64,000 nt of DNA from Gemmatimonadota bacterium (lineage in GTDB: Bacteria; Gemmatimonadota; Gemmatimonadetes; Gemmatimonadales; Gemmatimonadaceae), in assembly GCA_026387895.1 (NCBI GenBank), contig JAPLKT010000121.1, positions 1 through 64,000 of the forward strand, read 5' to 3'. Shown here piece after piece: positions 32,453-39,690 of the stretch. Under the pieces are notes generated by a model that was not told where the DNA came from, made no database searches, and worked only from the letters and a program-made list of their open reading frames with translations. A program made the position numbers and the translations under genes. Positions within the stretch are counted from its first letter, which is position 1. Each line of letters begins with the position of its first letter.

Positions 32453-33342
32453 CCGCGCACGACGCGATGCGCCTGCTCCTGCCACGCGCGGAAGTGCCAG
32501 AGGATGTGCCACGCTTCGGCTACAAGCGACACGAGCGCGCTGCAGCCGTCGACGAGTACTGGACGTTCACGTATCGCGCGGAGCCGTGTGAGCACCACGC
32601 GTCGCAGCAGTAGTATGAGCGGGAGGGCTTCGCGGTGAATGGCCGCGTAGAGCACCGCTGAATAATGCTGCCGCGCGAGCGCTCCCCCCCACGCGAGTCG
32701 CCGCGGCGGGTGGTCTACAATGGCCTCCGAGGAGAATCCTTCGACGAGTCCGCCGTCACGTGCACGCTGCTGCAGGTCGAAATCTTCCATGTGCGCGTGC
32801 GGAAAACGTTCATCAAATCCGCCAAACTGTTCAAAGGCGCTGCGGCGAATCAGGAAGTTGCAACTCCAGATCCACGCGCCCGTTTCGTTCACTGGCGAGA
32901 TCTGTAGGGGCGATGTCCATGGCTGGCGACAGACCGTACATCCTGGGGAGATCTCCCAGCCACGCGCGACCGCGACGAGGAAGCCACTCAGCCAGTTGGG
33001 ATCCGGAAGACAGTCGTCGTCAGTAAAGACGAGATACGACGCCCGCGCCAGCCGCGCGCCTGCATTTCGGTTTGCGGCGGGGCCCCGCCGTGGGCCCGCC
33101 GTCCACAGGGCCCACGGGTAGCGGTCCGCTACCATGCGGCGAGAGATCTCGTCTGTACTGTCGTCAGAAACGATGACTTCGTAACGCGCGGCGTCGAGCG
33201 ATTGCATGCCGGGTGCGAGTCGATCGAGGCACTGGGCCAGCGTGTCGGGGCGTTGGTACGTGGGAATCACGACGCTCAAGGTCGGCGTCGCGCGCCCATC
33301 GTCCGGCACCGGCGTCAGGTCCATCCTGCCGTGCGGCGCCAC
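32449..33342 (-). CDS. Glycosyltransferase family 2
   Basis: LSVVIPTYQRPDTLAQCLDRL, VSDDSTDEIS, AANRNAGARLARASYLVFTDDDC. Confidence 0.9.
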   Translation of the reverse strand: MAPHGRMDLTPVPDDGRATPTLSVVIPTYQRPDTLAQCLDRLAPGMQSLDAARYEVIVSDDSTDEISRRMVADRYPWALWTAGPRRGPAANRNAGARLARASYLVFTDDDCLPDPNWLSGFLVAVARGWEISPGCTVCRQPWTSPLQISPVNETGAWIWSCNFLIRRSAFEQFGGFDERFPHAHMEDFDLQQRARDGGLVEGFSSEAIVDHPPRRLAWGGALARQHYSAVLYAAIHREALPLILLLRRVVLTRLRAIRERPVLVDGCSALVSLVAEAWHILWHFRAWQEQAHRVVRG

Positions 33343-34292
33343 ACCTTCCGGTCGAGTCTCCAGTATCGCTTCACCGAAAACTCTTCATCGCCCGGGAACA
33401 TCTCCGTGTCGGCAACGGCATCGGTAAAGTTGTTGCCGTTCGCCGACGACTGATCAGCCCAGTGCAACAGCTCCGCCTCCAACGTCATGGGGCGAACGGC
33501 CGCACCATGTTCGGGAAGTCCGTGATGCGACTGAATAAAATGATGCAGTTCGAGTTCCTGCACGTCTGTCAGCGTGCCGGGCGGCAGCGTGCGCAGTCGA
33601 CGGTCCAGCATGATCGAGCCGAGGACGATATGCTGCAGCAGATAGCCGGCCTGCGTGTAGTCAAAGCCGGCGGCACCAATGGAGTACGTCTCAACCTTCC
33701 CGATGTCGTGCAACAGCGCGCCGGCGGTGACGAGATCGCGGTCGCCGCCCATCGTCTCGGTGGAGTGGCGTGCGATCGAGGCGACTTCGACCACATGCAA
33801 CAGGAGCCCGCCGACGAGCGCGTGGTGACCGCGCGGGGCACCTGGGGTCCGCTCAAATCGTGAACGGAACTCGTCGTCGGCAAAGAAGAGATCGACCGCG
33901 CGCCGTAACGTTTTGGACGTCATCTCGCCGCGCCACTGATCGACCTGTGTCCAGAGCGATTCCGTGGACTGGCGAATGCGCGGGAGAAAGTCGTCGAGAT
34001 TAATGGCGGCGCTCGGCACCACGCGCGGCGAGCTCGCGACCTTGATTTGGCGACGCCCCAGATAGAACTCGACGGTGCCGATCACCTGCACGACCATGCC
34101 AGCTTTGACGCCGGCCATCGCGGGGACCTGCTCCTTCCAAATATTAGCGCCGATCGTCCCGCTGGCATTGCCGAGCTGCAGCGCAACGTAGGGATCGCCG
34201 CTCTTGGTCTGCTTGTCCTCGCGCGTGCGCACCATCAGCTCGTGCTGAACGCGTGTGCCTTCGACGAGCGATGGGATATCGAGGATGGCCAC
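33315..34292 (-). CDS. OB-fold + HD-domain nuclease (YhaM-like 3'-5' exoribonuclease family)
   Basis: VRTREDKQTKSGDPYVALQLGNASGTIGANIW (OB) and HHALVGGLLLHVVEVASIA...GALLHDIGKVETYS (HD); GTG start. Confidence 0.82.
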   Translation of the reverse strand: MAILDIPSLVEGTRVQHELMVRTREDKQTKSGDPYVALQLGNASGTIGANIWKEQVPAMAGVKAGMVVQVIGTVEFYLGRRQIKVASSPRVVPSAAINLDDFLPRIRQSTESLWTQVDQWRGEMTSKTLRRAVDLFFADDEFRSRFERTPGAPRGHHALVGGLLLHVVEVASIARHSTETMGGDRDLVTAGALLHDIGKVETYSIGAAGFDYTQAGYLLQHIVLGSIMLDRRLRTLPPGTLTDVQELELHHFIQSHHGLPEHGAAVRPMTLEAELLHWADQSSANGNNFTDAVADTEMFPGDEEFSVKRYWRLDRKVWRRTAGWT

Positions 34293-34367: not shown

Positions 34368-35501
34368 TCACGGCTTCCAGTCAGCCATGAAAAGATTAGT
34401 CTCGTGCGGCTGCGAGCCGTACCGATTTGACGCCCACATCAGCTTTTTACCATCCGGGCTGAAAATAGGGAAGCCGTCAAACTCCATGTTCTTGGTGACT
34501 TGTTCGAGCCCCGACCCGTCGAGGTTCACAAGATAGAGGTCGAAGTTCCGGCTCTTAGGATTCGTGTAGTTCGACGAGAAAATGATACGTGTGCCGTCGT
34601 TCGTCCACGAGGGACCGAAGCTCGCGCCGCCGAGGTGCGTGATCTGCCGTTGGTTGGAGCCGTCGGCGTTCATGACGTAGAGATCCATCTTGTTCGGACG
34701 GATCATGTTCTGCTTGAGCAGGTCGCGGTACAGCGCGATCTCTGTGCTGTCGGTCGGGTGATACGCGCGGTAGACAATCTGCTTGCCGTCGGGCGACCAC
34801 CAGGGACCGCCGTCGTAGCCAGGCGTCGTGGTGAGCTGCTTCACGTCGGTGCCGTCGACGTTCATGGTGTAGATGTCGAGATCCCCACCCTTGAGCGACG
34901 TAAACACAATCCGTTTGCCGTCTGGCGACAGCACGCCCTCGGCGGTGTACACGCCGTAGTTCGTGAGGCGCTTCAGCCCCGAGCCGTCACGGTTGACGGT
35001 GTACATGTCGTAGGGATCGATCCCCCACACGTAGCCCTTGGAAGGATCTGGAACAGGCGGGCAGGCGCTGTCGGCCATGTGCGTCGAGCCGAAGAAGAGC
35101 CGCTTGCCGTCGGGGAGGAACCAGCCGCAGGTCGTCTTGCCGGCATTTGGCGAGACACGTTTTCGCTCGGTGCCATCGATTTTCATCACATACTGGAGGT
35201 CGCACTGATGCGCCTGTCCAGGAATCTGCGCTTGGTACGTGACCCACTTTCCGTCGCGCGAGAAGTAGGCCTCGGCGTTGCTGCCGCCAAAGGTGAGCTG
35301 ACGGATGTTGCGCAGGTGCGAGTCCTCGCCCGGATCGGCGGGACGTGCGACTGGCTTGGTCGGCGCGGCGGTCGGCTCAACCGGTGTGGTGGACAGGGCT
35401 TTCTCGAGCGGGGCCTTGGCGGCGGGGCCTTGAGCCCCTGCCGTTGAAGCAACCACCGCGAACAGGAGCGCGGTGGTCCGAATGTGAATCACGGAAGACA
35501 T
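34368..35501 (-). CDS. TolB-like PD40 beta-propeller secreted protein
   Basis: Repeated LSPDGKRIVFTS, WSPDGKQIVYRA, FSPDGKKLMWAS blades; signal peptide. Confidence 0.9.
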   Translation of the reverse strand: MSSVIHIRTTALLFAVVASTAGAQGPAAKAPLEKALSTTPVEPTAAPTKPVARPADPGEDSHLRNIRQLTFGGSNAEAYFSRDGKWVTYQAQIPGQAHQCDLQYVMKIDGTERKRVSPNAGKTTCGWFLPDGKRLFFGSTHMADSACPPVPDPSKGYVWGIDPYDMYTVNRDGSGLKRLTNYGVYTAEGVLSPDGKRIVFTSLKGGDLDIYTMNVDGTDVKQLTTTPGYDGGPWWSPDGKQIVYRAYHPTDSTEIALYRDLLKQNMIRPNKMDLYVMNADGSNQRQITHLGGASFGPSWTNDGTRIIFSSNYTNPKSRNFDLYLVNLDGSGLEQVTKNMEFDGFPIFSPDGKKLMWASNRYGSQPHETNLFMADWKP

Positions 35502-35510
35502 GAGAGAGGG

Positions 35511-37121
35511 CTAGTGTTGCTTGAGACGGCCAGGAGCTGGCGTTGCAGCGATGGGCCCGGCGAGGGCGAGGAGGTCCTTCGTGGTCTTGCCGCGCCGCAA
35601 GAGATCCAACGCCTTCTGCAACTGGGGATCATCGTGGAGGTCACGGCGCTTGGCCGTGCTGTCACCCCACGCGAGTGTGGCGATCTTGCCGTCGAGCAGA
35701 CGGTCGATGTACTTGATGCCCGCATCGAACTCCTTGCGGTCCACGGTCACGCCACGCTTGGCGAGACGCGCGTAGAACTCATCACGCATCGCCGGTGTAA
35801 TCGCGAAATCGGGCTTCACCTGCTTGCTCATCTCGAACGAGTAGTCGTAGAGCGCCAGGTAGGTCTCCTGCTGCTTGGAGAGCATTGAGCGCGCCAACTT
35901 CTGCTCGGCGGTCGTAAAGGTGTCGTACGGCACGATGACGTCCGGCGTGATGGCGCCGCCACCGTACACCACGCGGCCGCCGTCGCTCTTGTACTTGGGG
36001 CGATTCTGGCGCACCGCTTCGGTCTCGAGCGAATCCGGCTTCACTTCGACGAGCTGACCGTCGTCGGTGAGCTTGCGTTCTTTTTGGATGCTGCGACCGC
36101 TCGGGGTGTACCACCTGGCAGTTGTGAGCTTGATCGCAAAACCACCGTCGAGTCGGTACATGGACTGCACGAGTCCCTTGCCGAAGGATGTGGTTCCGAC
36201 GACGAGTGCGCGATCGTGATCCTGCAACGCGCCCGCGACGATTTCAGAGGCAGAGGCCGAATAGCCGTCGGTGAGAATCACGAGCGGAATCTTCGGCGCA
36301 ATCGGGGTCATGTCCGTCAGGTGAACCTGCGGCGGCTCGCCGCGCCCGCGTACGCTGAGAATCTCTTTCCCCTTCTCAACGAAGAGGTTGGTCATCGTGT
36401 CGGCCTGCTCGAGGAACCCACCGGGATTCCCGCGCAGGTCGAGCACCAAACTCGTCGCGCCTTCGGCGACGAGACGTTTGAGATTGTCCGTGACTTCCTT
36501 TGCCGCCGTCTCGCTGAAGCCCTGCACGGGGATATAGGCGGTCTTTCCGTCGAGCATGATTCCATACGGCACGGCCGGAATGCGAATCACGCGACGGGTG
36601 AAGGTCACCGCGAACGGTTCCGTGGTGCCAGGACGCACAAAGGTTGCGCCGATCTTGGTGCCCGGCTCACCCTTCAACCGTCCGGAGACCATCTCGATTT
36701 TCCAAGAGGCGGTGATCCGTGCGGTGTCGATCTTCACAATTCGATCGCCGACACGAATGCCCGCTTCGTCGGCCGGTGTATGCGGGAAAACTTTGGCGAT
36801 GACGATCGTGCCTTCCTGCTGCTCGATCTGCATGCCAACGCCGGCGTAGAACCCACCAGTTGTCTGATTGAACGCCTCAAGCTGCTTGGGCGAATAGATC
36901 TCGGCGTAGGGATCCTTGAGCTCTGCTACGAGCCCGCGGGCGGCCTTCTCGTAGAGCGAGCCAATGTCGACCGAGTCGACATAGCGATCGCTGACGATAG
37001 CCATGACCTGTTCAAACAGGCGCACACCACTCTGCGCGCCGCGTTCTTGGAACACGAACGCGCCCGCAATGAGGGGAATGAACGCGAGCCCGATCATGGC
37101 TGCCTTTGGGAGTCTACGCAT
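35511..37121 (-). CDS. S41-family C-terminal processing peptidase
   Basis: PDZ region GIRVGDRIVKID; VLDLRGNPGGFLEQADTM; LTDGYSASASEIVAGALQD; GTTSFGKGLVQ. Confidence 0.93.
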   Translation of the reverse strand: MRRLPKAAMIGLAFIPLIAGAFVFQERGAQSGVRLFEQVMAIVSDRYVDSVDIGSLYEKAARGLVAELKDPYAEIYSPKQLEAFNQTTGGFYAGVGMQIEQQEGTIVIAKVFPHTPADEAGIRVGDRIVKIDTARITASWKIEMVSGRLKGEPGTKIGATFVRPGTTEPFAVTFTRRVIRIPAVPYGIMLDGKTAYIPVQGFSETAAKEVTDNLKRLVAEGATSLVLDLRGNPGGFLEQADTMTNLFVEKGKEILSVRGRGEPPQVHLTDMTPIAPKIPLVILTDGYSASASEIVAGALQDHDRALVVGTTSFGKGLVQSMYRLDGGFAIKLTTARWYTPSGRSIQKERKLTDDGQLVEVKPDSLETEAVRQNRPKYKSDGGRVVYGGGAITPDVIVPYDTFTTAEQKLARSMLSKQQETYLALYDYSFEMSKQVKPDFAITPAMRDEFYARLAKRGVTVDRKEFDAGIKYIDRLLDGKIATLAWGDSTAKRRDLHDDPQLQKALDLLRRGKTTKDLLALAGPIAATPAPGRLKQH

Positions 37122-37260: not shown

Positions 37261-38106
37261 TTAGGTCGCTTTTTGCCCTAGGCGATAGCTGACCACCCAG
37301 TTCTTCCCATCCTGCTCGATTACTGCCTCGCGGGCCGCGCCCGAGGTCACCAGCATCTCGTGGGCGGGTTGGAGCACGCGCTGCAGGTGGGAGGGGAACC
37401 GTTGCACCAGGGGGAGTTGTTCGGCGAGTTGCTCGAGGGGAACGCGCCAGGTGGCGTGCCCGTTGGCGCGCGCCACCTCGAGCAGTCGGTAGAGCCGGCG
37501 CGCGACTGGGCTGTTGAGCGACCAGTACTGCGAGGACGACAGGGTGACACTCCAGCCCGCGGCGATGTTCGCGCGGAGTGGAGCGGCGATCGTCACACGC
37601 GCGTCGCCAGGTTCGTTGCTCGTAAGCAGCGGAAAGAGCCCAAGTTGGTCGCGATCTGTCATGCGCCGCCGGTCGATCTGCACGAGTGCGAGCACGGCCA
37701 TCTGGCCCGAAAAGAGCGGGCCCGCGGAGCCTTCCCGATAGCAGTCGGTGGATTCGAGCAGGGTACGTTCGAGACGGGTGAGCGCCGAGCGCAGTTGCTC
37801 GTAGGTGCGTCCGTCCACGCGCCGTCCCATGGCACGGAGGAAGGCGTGGAGTGTGAAGGAGACGGTGCCGTCGGCGGGCGCGCCCGCCTCGTGATAGCGG
37901 CGCATCACCTCGACGTAGACATCTTGATCGAAGGTGCCAGGCAGGCGTTCCCCTGGGGCGGGGAGCACGCGCCAGCGTCCGCCGGCGGGCGGTGACCAGG
38001 TGATGGACGCTTCGTCGGACGAGTCGCTGAGCCGAAAGATGGGGAGCGCCTCAAGGGAGCGGTCGAGCACGATGGTGCGCGAAGGCTGCTTGCGGCGCGT
38101 GGCCAT
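37261..38106 (-). CDS. Replication initiator protein A (RPA)-like protein
   Basis: WRVLPAPGERLPGTFDQDVYVEVMRRY...VSFTLHAFLRAMGRRVDGRTYEQLRSALTRLERTLL...PVARRLYRLLEVAR...LPLVQRFPSHLQRVLQPAHEML pattern of the RPA/RepA-like family. Confidence 0.75.
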   Translation of the reverse strand: MATRRKQPSRTIVLDRSLEALPIFRLSDSSDEASITWSPPAGGRWRVLPAPGERLPGTFDQDVYVEVMRRYHEAGAPADGTVSFTLHAFLRAMGRRVDGRTYEQLRSALTRLERTLLESTDCYREGSAGPLFSGQMAVLALVQIDRRRMTDRDQLGLFPLLTSNEPGDARVTIAAPLRANIAAGWSVTLSSSQYWSLNSPVARRLYRLLEVARANGHATWRVPLEQLAEQLPLVQRFPSHLQRVLQPAHEMLVTSGAAREAVIEQDGKNWVVSYRLGQKAT

Positions 38107-38179
38107 TAGACGCGGTTGGTCGAGCCGGACCTGAGCCGCAGCGACCGCGCGCGACGGGGGCGTTGCTGGTGCCGCGCAC

Positions 38180-38725
38180 TCATCGCAGTTCCTCGCGACC
38201 GAGTGCGGCACGCACGGCTTCGCGAATGGCGATGATCACGGCGTCGCGCGCGGCGGGTGAATCGTCGCGCACGTTTAGCTCGATACCGTCGGCGACAGGA
38301 AGCCGGCGCCAGCTCACGGGCTTGTCGTCGTCGTGCGACACGGCGCGATCGCTGCCGGCGCCGAGTGCGGGGGCGAGTGATAGTGCGACGCGCCGTTCGA
38401 GTTGATCAGCGCCGACGTCTTTCATCTCCGTCTTGATGGCGTCGAGCGTTTGGCCTTCGCGCTGACGAATCTTGATGGCGAGCAACTGCAGGAGATGCCG
38501 AAAGTGATACGTCGCCGCGGTTCCCTTGCCTTCGGGATGATCGATGAGCCCGGCCGCGACGTAGAAACGCACCGCGCGCGCACTTGGCGTGGCGCGCGCT
38601 GATGCGTTGGTGGGCCGCATTCCAGCAGCGTCAACGAGTGCCGTGGCATGCGAGGCGAGTCCGCGTGCGTTCCATGGAGCGTGGCGCGCGTGGGCGCGCA
38701 GAAGTGCTACAGAAGACTCAGCCAT
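38180..38725 (-). CDS. MerR-family-like transcriptional regulator
   Basis: SARAVRFYVAAGLIDHPEGKGTAATYHFRHLLQLLAIKIRQREGQTLDAIKTEM; TATTGT 6 nt upstream of ATG. Confidence 0.75.
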   Translation of the reverse strand: MAESSVALLRAHARHAPWNARGLASHATALVDAAGMRPTNASARATPSARAVRFYVAAGLIDHPEGKGTAATYHFRHLLQLLAIKIRQREGQTLDAIKTEMKDVGADQLERRVALSLAPALGAGSDRAVSHDDDKPVSWRRLPVADGIELNVRDDSPAARDAVIIAIREAVRAALGREELR

Positions 38726-38785
38726 GCCGATACAATAACTCCAGCGGAGCGAAACTTCGAGAACGGGGCGGGTGGGGCGGGCAGC

Positions 38786-38824
38786 GGGGGGTAACAACGG
38801 GAGGTAACAACGGGAGGTAGAAAT
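38786..38824. repeat. 13-bp direct repeats, about 3 copies
   Basis: GGGGGGTAACAAC / GGGAGGTAACAAC / GGGAGGTAGAAAT. Confidence 0.85.
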
Positions 38825-38854
38825 GGGGGGTGCGCGATGGTTCGCGCACCCCCC
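38825..38854 (-). terminator. Hairpin downstream of the histone-like gene
   Basis: GGGGGGTGCGCGA-TGGT-TCGCGCACCCCCC, 13-bp arms. Confidence 0.65.
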
Positions 38855-38894: not shown

Positions 38895-39527
38895 TTATTT
38901 CTTAGCCTTTGGGGCTTTTTTCACGACTTTCACGACTTTTTTGGCGGATTTCGCCGGCTTGGCCACCTTCTTAGCCGCCTTGACCGGCTTTTTGGCGGTT
39001 TTGGCGACCTTCTTCGCCGGCTTCGCCGGCTTGACGGCCTTCTTGGCGACCTTGACCGGCTTCTTCGCGGCGACCTTTGCTGGCTTCTTGGCGGGGGCCT
39101 TGGCAGCAGCCTTCGGCACGGCCTTGGCTGGCGCGGCCTTGGCTGGCGCGGCCTTGGCTGGCGCGGCCGCTGCGGCCGCTGCTACCGCTGGGGCGGCGAT
39201 AACGGGCGCGGCTGTCTCCGTCTCGGAGCCGGGCTTGCGACCGCGCTTCCGCGGGGCGCTCAACCCACCGCCGAACAGATCCGAGTCGTCCTCTTCCTCG
39301 ACGACGCCGGCGTCCGGTGCCAGTTCGCCCGGGACGCTCTCTTCGTCGTCGTCATCCGACTCCTCGGTGCTGTCCCACAGCGAGTCACTCTGGTCCTTAT
39401 TGATGGCCCAGCCGCCGTCCTCGTCCTCATCGTCGTCGTAGGGAATCCCGCCGCCGCTGTATCCCCCGAGCTCCTCGCCCTCGTCGTCGCCGTAGCCGCC
39501 AGGGGCCATTGCATCGCCGAAACTCAT
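38895..39527 (-). CDS. Histone H1-like basic protein with acidic N-terminus
   Basis: MSFGDAMAPGGY...DDDEDED...EESDDDDEE...SAPRKRGRKPG then long PAKKAAPAKK tail; strong CAGGAGG ribosome-binding site. Confidence 0.85.
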   Translation of the reverse strand: MSFGDAMAPGGYGDDEGEELGGYSGGGIPYDDDEDEDGGWAINKDQSDSLWDSTEESDDDDEESVPGELAPDAGVVEEEDDSDLFGGGLSAPRKRGRKPGSETETAAPVIAAPAVAAAAAAAPAKAAPAKAAPAKAVPKAAAKAPAKKPAKVAAKKPVKVAKKAVKPAKPAKKVAKTAKKPVKAAKKVAKPAKSAKKVVKVVKKAPKAKK

Positions 39528-39690
39528 GTCCTGCCTCCTGTCACAACGTTCAATAAATAGATGGACGACGTGGTCCACCGCTGAATACATAAGTCGCGCG
39601 CAGCCGTCCAGGAATCAAAGACTGAATCTGCCCGTTGAGCCACAGAGTATACGACACCCGCCCACCGCACAAGGTGGGTGGGGCGGGGAG

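Follow-up and report, generated by a model that had tools for sequence, protein, structure and literature searches.

A gene coding for a plasmid-type replication initiator of the RPA family lies in the window, by which we mean the whole stretch of 64,000 nucleotides analysed, among the genes and features listed in Table 1. Its frame is open throughout, and the product scores 70.2 bits against the PF10134 (RPA) profile, above the curated cut-off of 27 (E 2.5e-19). This is the sole PF10134 match in the whole assembly, and 57 of 57 orthologues match the profile too. Together with orthologues in 97 genomes of the Gemmatimonadaceae, this result bears out the first-pass annotation, made from the sequence alone, which had placed a plasmid-type initiator on the chromosome at this position.

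Table 1. Genes and sequence features around RPA, with their positions in the window
Feature	Position	Strand	Description	Basis
OB-fold and HD-domain protein	33315..34292	-	RPA neighbour in the window's genus; near MerR in sister families	
PD40 beta-propeller protein	34368..35501	-	conserved neighbour of RPA	
S41/CtpA-like PDZ protease	35511..37121	-	downstream of RPA, its most constant neighbour	Pfam, same-strand linkage
RPA gene	37261..38106	-	281 aa, WH1-WH2 plasmid-initiator fold	PF10134, AlphaFold2, Foldseek
Predicted WH2 recognition helix	37342..37395	-	residues 238-255 (PSHLQRVLQPAHEMLVTS), core near-invariant	model, conservation
Predicted WH1 helix	37765..37812	-	residues 99-114 (GRTYEQLRSALTRLER), near-invariant	model secondary structure, conservation
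MerR-type regulator	38180..38725 (probable start)	-	longest frame to 38797; orthologues align from residue ~24	MerR_1 PF13411, E 1.5e-6
13-bp repeat, 2.7 copies	38785..38819	undefined (.)	iteron-like at first sight	TRF
Hairpin GGGGGGTGCGCG...CGCGCACCCCCC	38825..38854	-	between H1-like gene and MerR; terminator-like	read by eye, unscored
Histone-H1-like protein	38895..39590		Lys/Ala/Pro-rich, upstream of MerR	

Upstream of RPA, on the same strand, a MerR-type gene ends 73 bp before the RPA start codon (ATG). The MerR helix-turn-helix was recognized in this upstream frame with 28.7 bits for PF13411 (cut-off 21.6). As orthologues align only from about residue 24, the gene probably starts at 38725, which would give a protein of 181 aa, and not at 38797 or 38824.

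The annotated flanks of RPA are ordinary chromosomal genes, coding for the OB-HD protein, the PD40 protein, the S41 protease, the H1-like lysine-rich protein and AcrB. Genes for partition, a transposase or a relaxase were not seen among the annotated RPA neighbours, the rest of the window being read as gene calls only. Moreover, the genes beside the RPA loci are those for S41, PD40, MerR, SDR and PLD proteins, with no ParA/ParB or other plasmid genes that would indicate a plasmid or chromid module. The earlier statement that partition, transposase and other plasmid genes are missing from the flanks thus holds for the annotated neighbours. The H1-like gene, which has fast-evolving internal repeats, is kept as a neighbour in several genera. 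The 13-bp repeat was rejected as an iteron array, since it has only 2.7 copies and is not kept in the closest relative (G015).

Predicted fold of the RPA protein

In the AlphaFold2 model of the window protein (57 input sequences; pLDDT 88, pTM 0.87), two tandem winged-helix domains of the RepE fold make up a complete WH1-WH2 iteron initiator. Foldseek matched this model to RepE, RctB and pi with E values of 1e-8 to 2e-5 and a probability of 1.00, and 43 of 43 matches to PDB structures with E<=0.001 were RepE, pi, RctB or a Rep-DNA complex. RepE (F plasmid), pi (R6K) and RctB (Vibrio chromosome 2) are the best structural matches and cover the whole length of RPA. However, their identity to RPA is 11-15%, and they act at iteron arrays, none of which was found at RPA. 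A search of the PDB by sequence gave no convincing match. Homologues in phages or viral contigs were not found by sequence either, and a phage origin of RPA was rejected on this ground.

Many columns are invariant among 31 diverse RPA sequences, with dense invariant runs in the WH1 and WH2 helices. The assignment of the WH2 helix as the recognition helix is a prediction by analogy with RepE. Both predicted DNA-contact helices are conserved, and the modelled DNA-binding fold is intact. Since RPA has kept both winged helices and these near-invariant helices, it most likely still binds DNA in a sequence-specific manner, in trans.

Distribution and inheritance in the Gemmatimonadaceae

PF10134 was detected in 97 of the 106 sampled Gemmatimonadaceae genomes versus none of the 191 other genomes of the phylum (297 in all). 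A smaller set of 61 genomes, comprising the window's own and its relatives, gave 33 of 37 for the family and 0 of 24 for other families of the order. Over both sets, 11 family genomes were found without RPA. The adjacent PD40 orthologue, retained in eight of eight sister-family genomes, is missing from all 11 too, and 10 lack the MerR orthologue as well; G016, an RPA-less family genome, has no DnaA match either. In G073, the contig breaks off inside RPA, directly after MerR. With PD40 missing too and a contig end of this kind in G073, these absences look like assembly gaps, and true loss of RPA was rejected. RPA is therefore effectively universal in the Gemmatimonadaceae, where it is a fixed, single-copy chromosomal gene.

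At nearly all loci the S41 protease gene follows RPA on the same strand, mostly 38 to 500 bp apart (exceptions, 1.6 and 2.8 kb). On the other side, RPA is preceded by MerR directly (about 44-125 bp), by an SDR gene or by SDR plus PLD genes, and in G070, G079 and G105 MerR is found about 32, 26 and 7 kb away, respectively. The constant partner of RPA is the downstream S41 protease, and the MerR pairing is not a defining unit. The operon-like MerR-RPA pair described in the first-pass annotation is real in the window, and direct adjacency extends to part of the family; it is not a conserved unit across the family, where SDR or PLD genes can intervene or MerR can lie several to about 30 kb away. 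MerR is also present in sister families without RPA, which means that RPA joined an older neighbourhood. At three sister-family MerR loci (L157-L159), LemA-like and M48-like genes stand alongside, and the OB-HD gene is close in two of the three, these names being assigned by eye from the first residues.

In the RPA tree, which has long branches and an uncertain deeper order, all chromosomal forms make up a single clade (support 100/97) separate from the plasmid forms. Distances between RPA sequences correlate with the S41, PD40 and MerR distances (Mantel r 0.65, 0.53 and 0.31, respectively; 0 of 2000 permutations). Among the pairs listed, close ones have dN/dS values of about 0.1 or less, with 0.097 for the pair with the closest relative, and the values of distant ones are saturated. 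RPA is under purifying selection. Universal vertical conservation had been named beforehand as refuting the first-pass interpretation if it came with no replication or DNA-binding activity. The first half of this holds, and the predicted DNA-contact helices are conserved along with the gene.

Many genera show, in their sequence, a promoter-like element of RPA's own near the start codon. One such element, TTGCCCG-ATTCACG[AT]GC...ACATT, lies about 10-45 bp upstream of the start of RPA (L062, L063, L166, L211, L215, L235, L246, L253) and suggests that transcription of RPA may be near-leaderless in this clade. A family-wide operator or target site upstream of RPA was not found; TTGCCCG-ATTCACG[AT]GC, present in one clade only and fitting a promoter spacer, was rejected as a candidate.

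Plasmid relatives and iterons

The nearest plasmid relatives of RPA come from Rubrobacter, Deinococcus, Thermus and Meiothermus/Allomeiothermus (25-31% identity). The RepA/TrfA proteins of Rubrobacter, Deinococcus, Thermus and Allomeiothermus share the PF10134 WH1-WH2 core with chromosomal RPA over most of its length. However, these plasmid forms have 459-499 aa (n=10 read), whereas chromosomal RPA has about 280 aa and ends after WH2. The plasmid forms carry a C-terminal extension, and their genes have 6-10 iterons next to them, often with ParA nearby; chromosomal RPA has none of these; the window protein, with its 281 aa, lacks the extension of ~190 aa beyond WH2 that marks the plasmid RepA subfamily.

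In five of five Rubrobacter plasmid RPA proteins, DnaA_N matches near the C-terminus with E values of 6e-8 to 4e-4, two of them over the curated cut-off, and 57 of 57 chromosomal forms are without this domain. Judged from these matches, the Rubrobacter RPA/TrfA proteins with DnaA domain I (L257:3998-5431, L275:2459-3916, L276:2342-3748, L277:2348-3739 and L278:2309-3760) are predicted fusions of a WH1-WH2 iteron initiator with the helicase-loading domain of DnaA. In E. coli, helicase loading involves DnaA domain I (PMC4980987).

A uniform repeat scan detected 6-10 iterons beside each of the 12 plasmid genes examined, whose products have 459-566 aa. The spacing was mostly about 22-23 or 31-35 bp, and shuffled controls of six plasmid loci gave at most 2 copies. 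The same scan found no iterons at any of 90 chromosomal RPA loci. The result for the plasmid controls agrees with the position of repA next to parAB and direct repeats on a Thermus megaplasmid (PMC4409726). At 21 of the 90 chromosomal loci, at least 4 repeat copies occur near -1000 bp, with all spacings multiples of 3 and with units that look Lys/Ala-rich. These clusters were rejected as iterons and look like coding repeats, most of them fitting the H1-like gene.

Both types of RPA occur in one genome of the family, G259. Its main contig carries the orthologue of the window gene, and two plasmid-like contigs, C5 (L162, 209 kb) and C6 (L161, 95 kb), code for RPA proteins of 511 and 566 aa with ParA-like genes nearby. 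These two proteins share PF10134 with the chromosomal orthologue of the same host, but differ from it in their sequence (27-29% identity), their ParA neighbours, their iterons at 22-bp spacing and their separate branch in the tree. While PF10134 is a known protein family, the family-wide chromosomal form without iterons and without a tail is new; a literature search of incomplete coverage found no description of a family-wide chromosomal RPA gene.

Replication context and possible roles

RPA and dnaA share a contig in 11 genomes. The distance between them is roughly 55 to 300 kb in 10 of these (G003, G014, G021, G030, G063, G070, G079, G104, G105 and G156) and 680 kb in G033, and RPA is oriented towards dnaA in all of these contigs except that of G033. 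The dnaA gene was found in 18 of the 19 genomes tested. A GC-skew analysis, proposed in the first-pass annotation as a check of the RPA site, gave no sign change at RPA in G156, G003, G021 or G070. The origin-side minimum falls near dnaA in G003, in G021 and, as a shallow change, in G070; in G156, for which the sampled skew of the whole chromosome is weak and noisy, it falls between dnaA (about 52 kb away) and RPA (25 kb away). Within the window, the DNA to either side of RPA has positive skew. An origin at the RPA gene was thus rejected in these four genomes.

A scan of 864 kb of near-origin DNA, the window among it, detected no iteron array, and the two clusters it gave are low-complexity repeats spaced by multiples of 3. 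Searched with E. coli-type patterns, the DNA within about 10 kb of dnaA showed no classical cluster of DnaA boxes in the sampled Gemmatimonadales (L261-L274, L139-L140), and a single DnaA box, TTATCCACA, stands just upstream of dnaA in several family genomes. The chromosomal origin of the sampled Gemmatimonadales seems to be non-classical or to use another box. The two sister-family genomes examined, which are without RPA, have no DnaA-box cluster either, and the missing cluster is therefore not tied to RPA.

We consider it probable that RPA is an exapted plasmid initiator, without replicon and C-terminal module, which works as a regulator in trans by binding specific DNA sequences. Distribution, monophyly, synteny and selection establish the entry, chromosomal landing and fixation of the gene, and RPA lacks the ~190-aa C-terminal module of its plasmid relatives, an adjacent iteron origin and par genes. 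A WH1-WH2 initiator of the Rubrobacter/Deinococcus/Thermus plasmid type entered the Gemmatimonadaceae ancestor, arrived on the chromosome as a lone gene next to an older MerR gene and a CtpA-like protease gene, and was then fixed. As the DNA-gripping core was kept and the tail and iteron array were lost, RPA is probably now a DNA-binding regulator. It would still bind a conserved DNA sequence in trans and would regulate transcription or replication timing, instead of serving as the initiator of its own replicon; in the lineage of the window, RPA and MerR are probably transcribed together. Of the two readings offered at the outset, it is the domesticated initiator that these data support. The locus constitutes a clear case in which the initiator of a selfish replicon was fixed among the core genes of the chromosome, an event placed at the base of one family. 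The plasmid relatives, even within the same genomes, are ready controls, and RPA offers a direct test of whether a WH1-WH2 initiator freed from its origin comes to regulate, license or defend.

Three points count against the regulator reading. RepE/pi-type initiators, of similar size at about 250-300 aa, need no such tail to initiate, and its absence is therefore no proof of lost initiation; the distance of 55-300 kb from dnaA and the lack of a classical DnaA-box cluster leave room for a role in replication; and the search for a target site or family-wide operator found none. It nevertheless seems rather unlikely that RPA still helps to start chromosome replication in trans at the chromosomal origin, as a second, essential initiator or as a helicase-loading partner of DnaA. 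Such a role would fit the complete WH1-WH2 fold, for which RepE and RctB are the nearest matches, the universality of RPA in the family, its usual distance from dnaA and the lack of DnaA-box clusters there. However, dnaA itself is present in nearly all genomes tested, the skew minimum falls near dnaA or between dnaA and RPA, the 864 kb of near-origin DNA hold no iteron array, and the two sister-family genomes without RPA are equally without DnaA-box clusters. That a plasmid-derived iteron-type initiator has become part of the core control of chromosome replication in the whole family, working with DnaA at a non-classical origin, we regard as unlikely.

It is quite improbable that RPA is an incompatibility factor that blocks or handcuffs related incoming plasmids by binding their iterons. 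Although RPA-type iteron plasmids with ParA are carried within the family (G259 C5 and C6), and a WH1-WH2 core without the C-terminal module could be a natural dominant-negative, RPA has only 25-29% identity to those plasmid proteins, the recognition helices differ, and the plasmids coexist with chromosomal RPA in G259. Moreover, anti-plasmid genes are, to our knowledge, seldom universal and syntenic in a family. Finally, the other reading offered at the outset, in which RPA is a relic left by the integration of a plasmid or secondary replicon and no longer has a function, is hardly credible and was rejected: RPA does descend from plasmid initiators, but purifying selection, family-wide orthology with single-copy retention, and the absence of par genes, iterons and other plasmid genes stand against it.

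Other large contigs of two family genomes carry RPA-like frames of about 600 aa that diverge very strongly (L156, on the 1.04-Mb contig C4 of G033, and L160, on C43 of G034), and these are possible megaplasmid or chromid initiators.
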